From Chloroflexi bacterium TSY (GTDB lineage Bacteria; Chloroflexota; Anaerolineae; Caldilineales; Caldilineaceae), in the NCBI GenBank assembly GCA_019217005.1, contig JAHBNG010000180.1, forward strand, positions 1 to 23,838: a DNA stretch of 23,838 bases, given 5' to 3'. Each line of letters opens with the position of its first letter. Position 1 is the stretch's first letter. The notes beneath the pieces are model-generated. The model was not told where the DNA came from, made no database searches, and was given only the letters and a program-made list of their open reading frames with translations. Positions 2,967 to 22,951 of the stretch are shown in pieces. The position numbers and the translations under genes are program-made.

Positions 2967-3911
2967 TTACTCACGCTCTAGAATGGCCGTGAGGCACCCA
3001 ATTGCGCCTGCTGCCTTGCTCAATTCGTCGACAGCGATGGCATGACAGCGAATGCCTAGATCTTCGTAGAATGACTGCGTAACGGGGTTGCCTGCGGCCA
3101 TCAAGATCTGACGTGGTCCCAGAGTAACGAAATTTAAAGGCGAACCAGTACGCGCTTCTTGTTCGTCAGGCAAAAAGGCAACTTGATATCCGCGTTCACG
3201 TAGTGCTTCAACCCCGGCATGAACCAACCGATTGGGCCACACAATTGCCAGATTCTCATCTGCAATGCGCAACATGCCCATCAAGTGCATTGATCCAAAG
3301 GGCAAATCCACTTGGATCACGTCGATACCGATTTCGTGCAGGATATTTGTTACTTGACTGGACCCGTCTGCATTGGTGCGCAATCCTCTGCCCAGAATCA
3401 CGGTTTCCGGTCGAGCCACATAGCATCCGCTCCTTCGAAGGTACCCGGCCACCGATGCTACGCAGGATCGGAATGCCTAGATCGGCCAAACGTCGCGCAA
3501 TCTGCCGTTCTTCGCCCGCCCGAACCTCAGAGGCCGGACGCACCAGAATCACACCTCGGGCGTCATAAACATGAGGTCGGCCATAAACATTTGGTTGGGA
3601 GTCGGTTTCTCTATTGGATTGAGATAGTGAACAGTGACGCCAACCTCTTTGTAGCCCGTGTAATGGCTTCGTGCTGCTTTTGGGCACGCGCAACGTTCAA
3701 CACATCCAGCATTTGAATGCTGTTCGGGTCAGGAAGCAGTTAGTTCTGAACCAGGCTTGTGAAGCAATACAGACTTCAAAGTTGCCCATTCGGTAGACTG
3801 ACCGCAGGCCGTCCACAGTCGCCCAATTTCATCGCGCATCGATTGTTGGCGTGGACGCCAGCCTGGTCCACCGTAAGCAGCATTTTTGTGTGATTGGAAG
3901 CGAACTATCAT
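2967..3911 (-). pseudogene. Dimethylargininase/amidinotransferase-like protein, multiply frameshifted
   Basis: Reading from ATG at 3911, recognisable segments follow in order: GWRPRQQSMRDEIGRLW, LKSVLLHKPGSE, HYLNPIEKPTPNQMFMADL, GVILVRPASEVRAGEER, GIPILRSIGGRGTFEGADAMW, ETVILGRGLRTNADG, LPFGSMHLMGMLR and finally AGAIGCLTAILE, whose Cys fits the catalytic cysteine of the guanidine-modifying superfamily. The frame changes at least four times (about 3730, 3650, 3565 and 3420-3440), so the gene is dead. Total length (about 314 codons) matches the usual size of DDAH-like enzymes. Known: such enzymes hydrolyse methylated arginines or related guanidines. It lies 47 bp downstream of the AhpD-like selenoprotein gene on the same strand and may once have shared its transcript. 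Confidence 0.8.
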
Positions 3912-3958
3912 ATGCCTATTCCTTCAATGTCCATTTACCATTTATTGTACACAAATGC

Positions 3959-4504
3959 TCACCGCATATGAGGCTCCAACGGCACCCCTAAACCGTCAGC
4001 CAGCCGGTTAACATATGCATAATAAGCCGTCACTTGGTTGATGTCCAGGATGGCAGCATCTGAAAATCCAGCTTCTCGTAAAGCAGCAACATCATCTTCC
4101 ACCATTTCCCAAGGACGCAGTGTCAACTTCTCGGTATACTCGAGCATTGCCCGGTCTACATCACTTAGAGTTGCTCGCCGCCAATCTTGCTTCAACTGCG
4201 CCACAAGCTCGTCGTCATCCGTCAGTTTACGGAGACCCGCTCCGTGGTGCTCTATTCAATAACGACAATGATTGGCTGTGGAACTCACAACAGCGATCAT
4301 TTCTCGCTGTGCTCGACTCAATTCGGAGCGACCTCGCATCAGATGCGCATAGAGATCAAAATGGGTCTGCATCGACTTGGGGTTCAGACTATGAATTTTG
4401 AGAATGTTGTCAACACCACCCCACGAACGGTCAAAGTACTTCTCATACAACTCCTTGAGTCTTCCTGTCGCGTCGGCTTCTTTAATCACCTTGATCCAGG
4501 CCAT
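3959..4504 (-). CDS. AhpD-like peroxidase-related enzyme, probable selenoprotein (CxxU)
   Basis: ATG at 4504 is preceded by a good ribosome site (AAGGTGA, 3-4 nt away). The frame runs 181 residues to a TGA at 3959 with one internal TGA at 4256-4258. Size and sequence fit the carboxymuconolactone decarboxylase/AhpD superfamily, 'peroxidase-related enzyme' branch. Family motif: E68, NHC80-R-Y-(TGA83)-IEHH87-GAGL. In Mycobacterium AhpD the catalytic set is Glu118, Cys130, Cys133 and His137; the spacing here (68, 80, 83, 87) is identical, so the TGA replaces the reactive second Cys. The C-terminal part (LEYTEKLTLRPWEM, AILDINQVTAYYAYVNRLADGLGV) is clean and in the same frame. A hairpin fitting bacterial SECIS rules follows the TGA. 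Inferred: Sec-containing disulfide reductase/peroxidase acting in the cytosol. Alternative: a nonsense mutation (TGC or TGT to TGA) in a decaying neighbourhood. The native promoter may be lost, because an IS ends 29 bp upstream of the ATG. Confidence 0.75.
4229..4245 (-). promoter_or_regulatory. Putative bacterial SECIS hairpin
   Basis: On the transcript the 5' arm ACGGAG and 3' arm CUCCGU pair perfectly (6 bp) around the loop CGGGU. Counting the U of UGA as 1, the stem covers 14-19 and 25-30 and the loop 20-24, with G22 G23 U24. In the E. coli fdhF SECIS, as I know it, the SelB-contacting loop bases are G23 and U24 at the same distance, and its local sequence AGGUCU (21-26) differs from GGGUCU here by one base. 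The fdhF-type bulged U17 is absent: this stem is uninterrupted. Confidence 0.7.
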
Positions 4505-4532
4505 AAATCACCTTATTTTCACCTTTACTTTC

Positions 4533-4616: not shown

Positions 4617-5906
4617 ATGCTAACCGCGCCAGAAATAACTATAGCAGTACTGATGAATGTATTGCAAGTAACGCCGATGGGAACAAACGTAAATGTAATG
4701 CGTCTGATGTGGGCAATGCTGAATGGGTCGTTTCTGAAAAGTCGAGGAGCAATCCATAGCGCATTGAAAGAAAGCGGGTTTGAAGATGAGGAGCTCCGGC
4801 GAAGCTGGTGGAGCTTTCGATATGGATCATGGGATATCACAAGTCTGCTGGGGTCGTGGCAAGAAGAAGTGGAAAGGGGAATGGGAGGCAAAAAAGTTAG
4901 AAGGGTACCGAGTGAAAAGCATAGATATCACAGGGTTCTGGCGACCGAAGCTGCAAGGGAAAGTGAACCGACTCTATAACTCAACGGCTCGTCGGGCATT
5001 GCCCGCGCTCATCTTTGGAGTGATGATAAGCTCGGGGGGAGATAGGCGGGAAGCGAGTGCCACTGCTCAAGGCAATCATGAGATGCACGGTTGGAACAAA
5101 GGAAAGTGAGTTTCGGAAAAAGCTGCTGACAGAGACGAAGAAATCACTGGAGTCAGACGAAGTGGCGGTGGTCGATGCCGGGTTTACAATCAGAGAAATG
5201 CTAGAAAGCGGCATAGACCGATTTGTCCTGCGGGAAGCGATTAACTGCACAGTGCGCCGCAATGAGTTCCCCAAACGCAAAGAAAAAGGCAGACCACCTG
5301 AATATGGTGATATTGTGCGACCGCTCTCGCAGCTATAAGGAAAGCGACTCGAGGCTACAACTCCGGACTCGTCTGGTCGCTTTCTCTATAGTGGTCGCCT
5401 GATTTGCTATCAAGCATGGCACAATCTCGTCCCCAGAACAACCAAGGTGGATACAGCCAACCGTACCTACTCGATTTACGTCATTCAGGATCCGGCCTAC
5501 AACACACCTTTGGTTTTGGCGACCGTTATGACTTTGCAGCCTGAAACCATTTATCTTGTCTACCTGGAACGCTGGCCTGTTGAACCTCCCCCCCTTGGCT
5601 TCCAAGCAGATGATTGGCTTACATCGTCAATTTGTTCATGCCGATGAGGCTTGTTTCCGCTTACCTGAACTGGGGCTGCTGGCTGGCAATCTTCTTTCCC
5701 ATTTAGCCGCTTCTCTTCCTCCCATACCGACTGGCTACTGGGATCGAGAGCCTCAAGCCACTCCCGGCAGGCTGCGCCGTGTTCTCTCGAGTGCTCTTTT
5801 TCCAACTCCTGACCAACTCGACCCTGACTTTCGGAAAAAGGCCTCGGTTTCACACCATTTCCCTAAAGGCGTTCTCGCTCATCACCGCCTCAATGCCGCT
5901 GCTTAA
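4617..5906 (+). pseudogene. DDE-type transposase of the 17-bp-TIR IS, disabled
   Basis: ATG at 4617 has an excellent ribosome site (AAGGAGGAAGGA). Transposase signs: VKSIDITGFWRP (first Asp), VAVVDAGFTIREM (second Asp) and IYLVYLERWPVE (Glu with the ERW/E signature of RNase H-like transposases), then a C-terminal domain ending HHRLNAAA. Lesions: frameshifts near 4890 and 5035, an in-frame TAA at 5336-5338, and a shift in a run of eight C near 5590. Intact length would be about 430 residues. Parts around 4750-4800 (FEDEELRRSWWSFRYGSW) look like a conserved N-terminal domain of this family. It probably cannot mobilise its own element. Confidence 0.75.
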
Positions 5907-5998
5907 ACTAGCCGAGCACTATTTTTACATTTTATCCCGTTTTTTCAGGGTGGATTCTTTTTTCCGCCCCTTTCGGTTTGCCCTTTGTCACTCAAGCC

Positions 5999-18369: not shown

Positions 18370-19581
18370 CTAAGCTTGTGGTCGACGACGGATAGTTCGT
18401 TGACGAATGTGGAAAGATTCGTCATAGGTGGTTCGGTCTTGCCACATTTTCCAAAGAATGGCCAGCCAGCGGTTGGCTAAAGCCCGATGAGAGCGACTGA
18501 CCGAGTGGCCCTTTGACGAGCTTGTAAAGTAAGCCGAAGCCAGCGAGATTGCTGGCGCGAAGAACGAGCCAGTTGCTGAGAAAAGTAACGAAACTCTTTA
18601 TCACAAGAGCGGCGAAAGTGGACCAAGTGGACTTTGCCACTTTGGTTGGTAACGGGAGCCGTGCCAGCTAAAGTCTGGACCATGCTGGAATGGGGGAAGC
18701 GGCGGCGATCTTCGCCAAATTTGACCAGCAAAGAGGGAGCCAAGAGCTCTCCTGCGCCCGGCAGGAAGCAAAATGGGGTGATCCTCGTGTTGCAGAAAAA
18801 GAGAGTTCAACTGTTGGAGTGTTGCTTGCTTGGAGTTGAGGGTATGGAGCAAGAGTCGGGCAAGTTGCTGGGCTTGAACTTGACAAGCTTGGGCAACACC
18901 CGGAGCTGAACGGGGATGTTGTGTGGTCAAGGCATCAAAACAGGTGAGCCATTTGGAGGGCTGATTATGTTTATGTTGCTTGAGAAAGACCTGAAATTCA
19001 TCATAGGTTGCTTTTTCTGCTGCTTGCGGCGACGGATAAGCCAGAATCAGATGAGCTGCAATGGGCGATGGCCAACTAAAGACATTGAGCAAAGCGGGAT
19101 GGTATCTGAGCAAACAACTACGCAAGCGATTGGAGACAGCAACCGTTTCTTTGCGCCAAAACTCGGTCATGCTCACCACGATGCGCATTTGCTGGAGTAA
19201 TTCACTCCCTGGATGCCAAGGATAGAATCGGTGAACATCTGTTCTGACCAGTTCAGCTATCGTATATGCATCACTTTCATCAGTGCGAGCACCGCTCTGA
19301 TTGTACCTCGCCCGACTTGCTTTGACCACGTTCGGTGGGAGGACATATAGATTTGTATACCCAGCATCCCATAAGTAGTCAATTATCAGATTATGTGCTG
19401 TCTCTAATCCGATTCGACATTTTTCATGGCCGATATCCATCGTTTCTCGCCACTTTTCTAGTTGCTTAAAGCCATCCACACTATGTTCTATTGTCATGTA
19501 GTTAATTCGACGACCGTTTTCATCCGTTATCATTACATCATGTTTTGTTTCACTCCAGTCTATTCCTATGAATATCTGCAT
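18370..19581 (-). pseudogene. IS110-family DEDD transposase A, frameshifted
   Basis: ATG 19581 follows GAGGAGGTCAAAA, a strong ribosome site. N-terminal RuvC-like DEDD domain: IGIDWSE (Asp), GLETAHNLIIDYLW (Glu), DESDAYTIAELVRTD (two Asp). C-terminal Tnp domain: LPGAGELLAPSLLVKFGED and LAGTAPVTNQSGK, the serine-bearing motif, ending ANRWLAILWKMWQD to RRRPQA. The second half is in other frames: one shift near 18770 and at least one more near 18550. Intact length would be about 404 residues. Known: cuts and rejoins DNA guided by a bridge RNA. Confidence 0.88.
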
Positions 19582-19847
19582 TTTTGACCTCCTCATTCAC
19601 TTGAGGATTGCCTTTGGTCATTTTTTTCGGACGCTCTTTTCCGTTTTCCTATTATGGCATTCGAGATGCTACACGCTTGCGACGGTTCTAGGCGTCGGCT
19701 TGGTGGACGGTCCGGGAAGGGCGGTCGCACCGCGGGAAGAGGGCGGTCCTTTTTACCAAGCCGGAGTTCGATTCCGAGTGACAGCTTCTCTCTTTCTGTC
19801 TCTCTCATTCTAACTCCTTTCCTATATTATCTAATAGGAAGAGGTCA
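19582..19847 (-). ncRNA. Candidate bridge RNA region of IS110 element A
   Basis: 266 bp between left end and transposase ATG, non-coding. It aligns with the equivalent region of element B, with conserved blocks (AAAAAGGACC, GCGGTGCGACCGC hairpin at 19721-19733, CGCCCTTCCCGGAC, GGAAAACGGAAAA) and divergent stretches between. In IS110-group elements a structured bridge RNA is known to be encoded here, with loops pairing to donor and target. Exact ends of the RNA cannot be set by eye. Confidence 0.6.
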
Positions 19848-20125: not shown

Positions 20126-21341
20126 ATGAAAGTGAAAATGGGAATCGACTGGAGTGAAAAGAAACATGATGTGATGATGTTGGATGAGACAGGAAGCGCT
20201 GGGCTATGCGCAGATAGAGCATAGCCAGAAGGGATTTCGCCAAATTGAAGAAATGAGAAAGAAGACAGGAGCGAGCCATGATGAAGTGACAGTGGGACTG
20301 GAAACAGCGCATAATTTGCTGATTGATTATCTCTGGTCGAGCGGGTACAAGAATGTCTATGTGGTGCCGCCGAATGTGGTGAACAAGAGTCGGGAGCGCT
20401 ATAGTCAAAGTGGTGCGCATAATGATAAGAGTGATGCCTATGTGATAGCAGATTTGTTGCGGACCGATGTCCATCGATTTTATCCTTGGTCACCTGGCAG
20501 TGAATTACTCCAGCAGATGCGAGTGGTCAGCAGTGCCACACAATACTGGACCAAAGAGACTGTGGCCTTATCCAACCGTCTGCGCGCTTGCCTGTTGCGT
20601 TACCATCCGGCGCTGCTTGAGGTCTTCAGCAACTGGCCTTCTCGGATTGCCTGCCACCTGGTTCTGACCTATCCAACGCCAGAGCATGTGCGCAACTCCA
20701 CCTATGAAGGCTTCCAAGAGTTTCTCAAGCAGCACCGACATACGCAACCCCGTAAATGGGTCACTTGTTATGATAAGTTAACCGCCACTTATCCCACATC
20801 AGCTCCTGCATTTGTGCCAGCGTATCAACGAGAAGCTCTTCAGCTGGCTGAATGTCTTTTGCTTGCACTGCGCTATGAACAAGAGACCCTTGACCAGTTA
20901 CAGTCACTTTTTCTGCAACATCCGGATCAGCATATCTTTGCTTCTTTACCTGGTGCTGGCCAGCTTTTAGCTCCCAGTCTTCTGGTCAAGTTTGGCGAAG
21001 ACAGGAAACGCTTTCCTCTCCCATGAGCCTTCAGTCTCTGGCGGGAACCTGTCCTGTCACCAAACAAAGTGGCAAAGTCAGAACCGTTCATTTCCGCAGA
21101 GCTTGCGATCACGACTTTCGTTATTTTACTCAGCAATTTGCTGCTGCTCCCGCAAAGAGTCTTCTTGGGCCGCTGCTTTTACACCGCCGCTCGCCAACGC
21201 GGTCTCAAAAAGAGTCATGCTGATCGCACTCTCGCTAATCGCTGGATTTGCATCATTTGGAAATTGTGGCAAGACAAGAAACCTTATGATGAATCTTTCC
21301 ATTTGCAGCAACGAGCCCATCGTCGCCAACCTATCGCTTAA
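20126..21341 (+). pseudogene. IS110-family DEDD transposase B, frameshifted
   Basis: ATG 20126 follows GAGAGGAGGTCCAAG. Same architecture as transposase A and clearly homologous: GIDWSEKKHDVM, GLETAHNLLIDYLW, DKSDAYVIADLLRTD, then LPGAGQLLAPSLLVKFGED and LAGTCPVTKQSGK, ending YDESFHLQQRAHRRQPIA. Frame changes near 20190, near 21020 and near 21170 disable it. Intact length would be about 405 residues. Differences from A are spread along the protein, so A and B are diverged relatives, not a recent duplication. Confidence 0.88.
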
Positions 21342-21509: not shown

Positions 21510-21756
21510 AAGTACTATATACTCTATACTCAGTAGATAAACATGCGGTGAGCCAACACAACAGGGGATGAAAAATGTGTTAAAGTGTGGTGGCAGCCGC
21601 CGAACAGAAATCGGGAAAGGTCCGTGGTCAAGTAAAGAACGCTCAGTAGCTAGATTGGTACACCGACGCACCACGGGATGTGGACGTTCCTCGGGACGAA
21701 ACACGCAGGCAGACTGTGCTCACAATCGGCACATAAGCCTGCGAAAGGAAAGGAAG
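21510..21756 (+). ncRNA. Structured 5' region of IS110 element C, bridge RNA candidate
   Basis: About 250 bp of non-coding sequence before transposase C. A perfect 7-bp stem CCGTGGT (21622-21628) with ACCACGG (21670-21676) and other self-complementary stretches are present. Only one copy is in the window, so conservation cannot be tested here. Position matches where IS110-group bridge RNAs lie. The element's left boundary is unknown. Confidence 0.45.
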
Positions 21757-22951
21757 ATGGAAGTGATGTTTCCGAAGTGCAGCGGCCTGGATGTTCACAA
21801 GCGGATGGTAGTGGCGTGTGTGGTAGATGAATCAGGGAGGATGGAGCAGGTGCGCAAGCGATTTGGGACAACGACGGTCGAGTTGGAGGGGTTGAGGTCG
21901 TGGCTGTCGTCGTATGGGATCACGCATGTGGCGATGGAGAGTACGGGAGTGTGGAAACCGATCTCTTTTTTTGTGTTGCATGAGCATTTTGAGGTCTGGA
22001 TTGTGAATGCCCGCCATCTGGCACAGGTGCCTGGTCGCAAGACGGATGAGAGCGATGCGGCCTGGATCACGAAACTGATGAGTTATGGACTGCTGGAGCG
22101 CAGTTTCATTCCAGATGTGGAGCAAAGGGACTTGCGAGACCTGACGCGCTATCGGACGCGTCTCTTGCAAGAGAAGAGTGCGGCAGTCAATCGCCTGCAT
22201 AAGGTGTTGGAAGATGCCAACGTCAAGTTGGGATCGGTGGTCACGAGCATCCAAGGTGTATCGGCACGCCAGATGATCGAGGCCCTGATTGCAGATGAGA
22301 TGGACCCAGAAGCCATGGCTGACTTGGCACAAAAGCGGCTGCGGGCCAAGATTCCCCAGTTGGTTGATGCGTTGACGGGACTGGTCCGTCCTCATCATCG
22401 TTTTATGCTGCAAGAAGTTCTGCATCATCTCGATCACCTGAATGTACGCATTGATGCCCTCAATCAACAGATTGGGGTCCTCATGGCTCCGCATGCTGAC
22501 CTCATCGCACGCCTAGATGCCATTCCCGGTGTGGGGCGAGTCGTCGCCGAGATAATTCTGGCGGAGATCGGTCCCTCGGTCGAAAGCTGGCCCTCAGCTA
22601 AGAAACTGGCCTCCTGGGCTTGTGTCTGTCCTGGCAACAACGAATCGGCGGGCAAACGCAAGAGTGGTCGCCGACGAAAGGGCCAGAAATGGTTAGTCAC
22701 CGCCCTCCTCGCACCAGGACACCTATCTCGCCGCACAGTTCCACCGTCTCAAGGCACGACGCGGAGCCAAGCGGGCAGCTATTGCCGTGGCCCATTCCAT
22801 CTTGACCATCGTCTATCATCTCATCGACAAGCCCGATGCCGTCTTTGAAGAACTCGGCGGCGACTTCTTTCTCAAACGACGCAAGGAGCATGCAAAGCCG
22901 GCGCACTCAAAACCCTCGAGTCCCTCGGCTTCTTTGGCACCGACCGCCTAA
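21757..22951 (+). pseudogene. IS110-family transposase C, C-terminally damaged
   Basis: ATG 21757 follows AAAGGAAAGGAAG. N-terminal half is clean: CSGLDVHKRMVVACVVD (Asp), AMESTGVWKP (Glu), GRKTDESDAAWITKL (two Asp), coiled middle, then LDAIPGVGRVVAEIILAEIG and ASWACVCPGNNESAGKRKSG (C-terminal domain with the Ser motif). After KGQKWLVTAL (about 22705) roughly seven expected residues (AWAA-type helix) are missing and the frame shifts to HQDTYLAAQFHRLKARRGAK, then AIAVAHSILTIVYHLIDKP. A possible further shift near 22895 leaves the true end uncertain. A different IS110 lineage from A and B. Confidence 0.85.

Follow-up and report, generated by a model that had tools for sequence, protein, structure and literature searches.

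Does the in-frame TGA at positions 4256–4258 (minus strand) of the window, by which we mean the whole stretch of 23,838 nt that was analysed, break a gene, or does it encode selenocysteine (Sec)? The codon lies in a frame that, read directly from the sequence, runs on the minus strand from 4504 down to 3959 and comprises 181 codons and a terminal TGA. It is the sole internal in-frame TGA, at codon 83, and stands in the motif NHCRY-TGA-IEHH. An ordinary open reading frame listing splits the gene into two pieces (4256–4504 and 3959–4204), as the original prediction had expected of ordinary gene calling. With codon 83 read as Sec, the translation matched the NCBIfam model TIGR01926 (“peroxidase-related enzyme”) over residues 2–178 with 164.8 bits (cut-off 81.8), which places it in that family, and the Pfam CMD domain with 47.2 bits. 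Translation and TIGR01926 alignment together bore out the claim that the TGA occupies the place of the second Cys of a CxxC motif. A Shine-Dalgarno-like AAGGTG (4509–4514, minus strand; read directly) precedes the ATG by 4 nt, and the start MAWI is shared by most of the full-length relatives aligned.

The residues of an AhpD-type relay were found at fixed spacing, namely Glu68 (4301–4303), Cys80 (4265–4267), Tyr82, the predicted Sec83 and His87 (4244–4246), all on the minus strand. Glu68, Cys80 and His87 occupy columns that are invariant in 29 aligned rows. In AhpD of Mycobacterium tuberculosis, the relay is formed by Glu118, Cys130, His132, Cys133 and His137, according to the publication from which we take the residue roles (PMC3141380). 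Glu68 and His87 are thus the equivalents of Glu118 and His137, Cys80 is the partner of Sec83, and the equality of spacing between Glu68-Cys80-TGA83-His87 and the mycobacterial residues, which had been proposed from the sequence alone, held when compared with that publication. The protein resembles M. tuberculosis AhpD, a CxxC protein that serves as adaptor of the peroxiredoxin AhpC, in its helical-hairpin active site and in the spacing of Glu, Cys, Cys or Sec, and His. It differs in having a predicted Sec for the second Cys and Tyr82 for His132, and in belonging to the TIGR01926 subfamily. A Pseudomonas aeruginosa protein also has Tyr in place of His132, according to the same source (PMC3141380). 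No AhpC-like match was found among the window proteins scanned. The TIGR01926-type structures 3c1l and 2pfx align to the family profile with E-values of 2.2e-53 and 1.1e-52, respectively, and have Cys where this protein has the predicted Sec. The alkylhydroperoxidase-related (seleno)protein model NF041238 (AhpD_rel_CFYUT) likewise describes an AhpD domain with CxxU. That model, however, is longer and represents another family; the translation scored 64.9 bits against its cut-off of 175 and falls outside it.

The codon at the Sec column was examined in the DNA of relatives, using 80 loci that were the best of 563 confirmed candidates in genome contigs. The column held TGA in 76 of these best 80 loci, TGC in three, TGT in one and TGG in none, so that TGA is conserved among them beside a minority of Cys codons, both of which the original prediction had named for homologues at this column. 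A second in-frame stop inside the match occurred only in L047 among the same best 80 of 563 loci. By record titles, the TGA forms in this set come from Chloroflexota, Acidobacteriota, Gemmatimonadota, Actinomycetota, Planctomycetota, Marinimicrobia, Bacillota, SAR324 and others. A second search covered 298 genomes of the class to which G001, the genome of locus L001, belongs, and 51 of them had a match at E ≤1e-30. Exactly one in-frame TGA was present in 56 of the 64 matches, none in seven, and one match was degenerate; the TGA column itself was checked for 20 loci. These 20 loci, among which L082 repeats L001 and L094 probably repeats L029, had TGA at the column in 17 cases and TGT in one, and the motif pattern found nothing in two. 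The same TGA was present in the four nearest of the best 80 of 563 loci and in the five nearest of the class search. A second copy, 44–49% identical and containing a single in-frame TGA, is present in several genomes of this class (e.g. G001, G097, G283 and G029) and suggests that a paralogous subfamily of Sec proteins exists. Viral contigs yielded 21 stretches that matched a pattern, none of which encodes a relative, and the 463 matches in plasmid records were all below 60% identity.

A tree was built from 77 Sec and 55 Cys rows (132 in all), without the Trp and other rows and with the Sec column masked. In it the gene grouped with the Chloroflexota loci L001–L004 in a Sec-only clade of five rows with support of 100/98, and all four clade mates have TGA. 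The Sec label changed eight times over the 132-row tree, compared with 42.3 times for shuffled labels. Pairwise comparisons with seven relatives gave pS of 0.75–0.87, which is saturated or nearly so, and pN of 0.16–0.25. Because silent sites are saturated, no dN/dS ratio is given. Few replacement changes against saturated silent changes nevertheless indicate long-lasting selection on the protein, and on these alignments the remainder of the frame is under purifying selection.

Genes for Sec insertion were surveyed in 50 of the genomes behind the best 80 of 563 loci; 46 of these 50 had the TGA form and four the Cys form. A tRNA-Sec match exceeded the cut-off in five of 14 control genomes, so that scores close to the gathering cut-off have no diagnostic value. 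Therefore, tRNA-Sec was counted only at 57 bits or more; G032 drops out under this rule, its match of 49.4 bits beginning at the first base of its contig. Of the 46 TGA-form genomes, 38 had tRNA-Sec at this threshold and 38 had a selB match above the cut-off; 41 had one or both. The five with neither were G002, G007, G011, G036 and G038. Both were present in two of the four Cys genomes and neither in the other two. The genomes G001, G003 and G004 of three clade mates have selA, selB, selD and tRNA-Sec, while G002 (of clade mate L002) has selB only as a fragment at a contig end. In seven near genomes, selA was found in six and selD in all seven. In every one of the seven, selD itself contains an in-frame TGA, which in G283 lies in one of two pieces of the gene. 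Co-occurrence was compared in 45 genomes out of the 298 in the class of G001. A selB match exceeded the cut-off in 18 of 20 that have the TGA form, in four of five that have a non-TGA form alone, and in 17 of 20 that lack a match at E 1e-30; within this class, selB therefore does not follow the presence of the gene. The 23,838-nt window itself contains no tRNA genes.

Downstream of the UGA, inside the coding sequence (4229–4245, minus strand), a synonymous-shuffle test and a register survey point to a SECIS-like hairpin, ACGGAG-CGGGU-CUCCGU. Its stem begins 10 nt and its apical loop CGGGU 16 nt after the UGA, and it has G in the apical loop, as expected of the bacterial SECIS type. In both this gene and fdhF of Escherichia coli, 18 nt separate the UGA from GGUCU. 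The gene's own hairpin score had p = 0.013 against 1000 synonymous-codon shuffles. For the 76 TGA sequences (this gene and 75 loci; L024 was left out for an N), the mean score was 15.5 as against 10.46 for shuffles (sd 0.35; maximum of 1000 shuffles 11.66), i.e. 14 sd above synonymous shuffles, and 29 of the 76 reached p < 0.05 singly. Counting from the UGA, nt 19–20 are GG in 60 of 76 sequences, and 43 of 76 have GGUCU at nt 19–23. The Cys homologues that could serve as a control were only four, L075 among them with p = 0.047. Energy-based folding depended on context. With 36 nt, the probability of the SECIS pairs was 0.74–0.81, and with 59–60 nt the minimum-energy fold of the RNA was another structure without these pairs. 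Nor was the fdhF hairpin obtained when a 37-nt stretch of that gene was folded, so that the minimum-energy test is weak. Rfam gave no matches in the whole window, nor at 4150–4300 at E up to 1.

The position of the hairpin varies across the family. The five core pairs were found in the register of this gene in 33 of 76 sequences, in a register two nt further in 18, and in neither in 25. Within the group of 33, which was chosen by pairing and is hence biased, two pairs change in both arms, in six cells, and the further pair types there do not exceed those of shuffles (229 of 500 were as high). In the Anaerolineae group L022, L025, L028–L031 and L034, HH is followed by ARN (SRN in L034) and the usual hairpin is absent (p 0.45–0.60). 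Five of these seven loci, when folded apart, showed another hairpin about 12 nt further downstream, at about nt 20–42 after the TGA, which is apparently a relocated SECIS. The registers proposed for the family are a loop at nt 17–21 after the UGA (the type of this gene), one two nt further, an intermediate, and, in this Anaerolineae group, one about 12 nt further downstream.

A search for related proteins retrieved 866 hits with E-values up to 1e-3; the counts that follow concern the 120 listed. The residue at the Sec column among the 120 was Trp in 55, Cys in 51 (49 by pattern, and P0073 and P0112 by eye), Gly in six, and Arg, Leu and Ser in one each, and five of the 120 were C-terminal halves of about 100 residues, 78–85% identical to this protein, that start just past the TGA column. 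Gene-calling programs can choose a code in which TGA is Trp for short contigs. The contigs of the 55 Trp records are at most 3,252 bases long, with a median of 1,120, compared with a median of 4,687 for the Cys records. One Trp record, P0038, shares 99.5% identity across 182 residues with L018 translated through its TGA. Most Trp entries are thus probably gene-calling artefacts in which Sec was mis-called on short contigs, with one record tied to TGA.

The surroundings of the gene are of mixed condition. Directly downstream on the same strand lies an interrupted gene of the arginine deiminase family (PF02274; 2970–3923, minus strand). Its piece 2970–3476 matched PF02274 with 28.6 bits (cut-off 22.8) and its piece 3732–3923 had no Pfam match; both pieces match L006 next to the Sec gene of that locus. 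A serine hydrolase gene of the beta-lactamase family (PF00144; 1463–2240, plus strand) is split over two frames, and three IS110-type transposase genes or fragments occupy 18601–19596 (minus), 20184–21026 (plus) and 21568–22848 (plus). The original prediction had set a clean frame against neighbouring relics with frameshifts. This was borne out in part, by the deiminase-family and beta-lactamase-family genes, but seven genes between 6282 and 16645 have long open frames and near-complete family matches. The decarboxylase encoded in the window has its best match elsewhere, at 65% identity, in a Chloroflexota MAG, so that the source is probably a member of Chloroflexota; among the 298 genomes of the class of G001, however, just four had a match to it at E 1e-100, the closest at 61% identity.

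Gene order was compared with that of 107 loci. Apart from the gene itself, the deiminase-family pieces recur in three Marinimicrobia loci, and all other matches are scattered ones at family level. It is possible that the deiminase-family gene is a former operon partner. No common gene partner emerged, as no cluster among the 486 ORFs within 3.5 kb occurred in more than seven of the best 80 of 563 loci. Other arrangements were seen at single loci or groups. In the Marinimicrobia locus L006, a short deiminase-related ORF (5599–5910) adjoins the Sec gene. Seven Gemmatimonadota loci (L032, L037, L041, L051, L052, L063 and L066) have a gene of an aromatic amino acid lyase cluster 30–198 bases after the Sec gene on the same strand, and six of these seven and L046 have a urocanase-type gene nearby (one representative was scanned in each case). 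In L002, a nickel superoxide dismutase gene (2088–2543) lies 154 bases downstream of the match of the Sec gene.

How, then, should the TGA be read? It is one base from TGC or TGT, and more distant relatives have Cys at the same column, as would suit a chance nonsense mutation of a Cys codon or a sequencing error. The same TGA, however, stands in the nearest loci and in 76 of the best 80 of 563, i.e. in independent genomes, which rules out both. Together with the all-TGA clade, purifying selection, the hairpin and the Sec genes found in relatives, this conservation leaves neither mutation nor base-calling error tenable, and we consider their chance negligible. A variant genetic code or a suppressor might instead have TGA read as Trp or another standard residue, and the Trp found at the column in 55 of the 120 listed hits (of 866) seems at first to favour this. 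Those Trp records, however, come from contigs of no more than 3,252 bases, and P0038 is nearly identical to a locus with TGA. The variant code was rejected because no internal TGA interrupts the long genes of the window, which are open under table 11, TGG occurs in none of the best 80 of 563 loci, and most of the relatives' genomes have tRNA-Sec and SelB; decoding as a standard residue is accordingly extremely improbable.

A subtler possibility is that a former Sec gene in a decaying neighbourhood has just gone out of use, with its frame still intact and its UGA no longer decoded or the gene unexpressed. The interruption of the gene directly downstream, the splitting over frames of another that ends about 1.7 kb away, and the IS110-type transposase genes in the window would fit such a history. 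Against it, all 181 codons are intact, replacements are few although silent sites are saturated, the SECIS-like hairpin has been kept, the start and the Shine-Dalgarno-like sequence are in place, and seven long genes are open elsewhere in the window. Recent disuse is thus very unlikely. The reading that we prefer is that 3959–4504 (minus strand) encodes a functional AhpD-like selenoprotein of COG2128/TIGR01926, with the UGA of codon 83 decoded as Sec in a CxxU redox pair, to which we give a probability of roughly 0.96 on sequence evidence. The reading of TGA as Sec that was first suggested is hence supported by TGA in 76 of the best 80 of 563 loci, an all-TGA clade, selection, the hairpin and the machinery of relatives, from which we also infer Sec insertion in the source organism.

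If the gene functions as predicted, the UGA would be decoded by SelB and tRNA-Sec, guided by the mRNA hairpin with its stem after 10 nt and its loop after 16 nt. On the conserved helical hairpin, Cys80 would pair with Sec83 as the two redox residues of CxxU, and protons may be relayed through Glu68, Tyr82 and His87 much as in AhpD. A peroxide, or a disulfide of a partner, would be the target of the selenolate, which may be recycled through a selenenylsulfide with Cys80. This catalytic cycle, its substrate and its partner are putative.

Selenoproteins of this kind were already known, as had been stated when the gene was first noticed. Four publications describe an AhpD-like CxxU selenoprotein of COG2128 with 27 Sargasso Sea sequences in 2005 (PMC1088965), “AhpD-like 1” with 299 sequences in the Global Ocean Sampling survey (PMC2398784), and, in reviews, an AhpD-like selenoprotein listed under COG2128 (PMC9312934) and TIGR01926 (PMC13188914). 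Compared by family model and motif with the marine proteins as described there, the protein shares TIGR01926 membership, CxxU with Sec at the second position, a stem-loop after the UGA and widespread Cys homologues. Nothing essential differs, except that the gene lies here on a contig with Chloroflexota-like genes, beside broken genes. The gene is therefore a further member of an already described family, and the surprise is small for that reason.

For this organism, the Sec reading means that a seeming pseudogene is almost certainly an intact, working selenoenzyme gene, as predicted from comparative evidence. For the family, the AhpD-like Sec form spans many phyla and is often hidden in databases, either split at the UGA or carrying a probably false active-site Trp. 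Such hidden Sec affects the functional annotation of redox enzymes in metagenomes. We tentatively propose, at somewhat less than even odds for the two parts jointly, that the SECIS hairpin re-forms at several places in the mRNA with the Sec codon fixed, and that much of the family is concealed in databases as Trp entries or halves. The hairpin positions across the family are usable for studying the movement of SECIS elements within coding sequence. If the hairpin does re-form, the family may offer a view of how the elements recognised by SelB shift or are built anew within a coding sequence.
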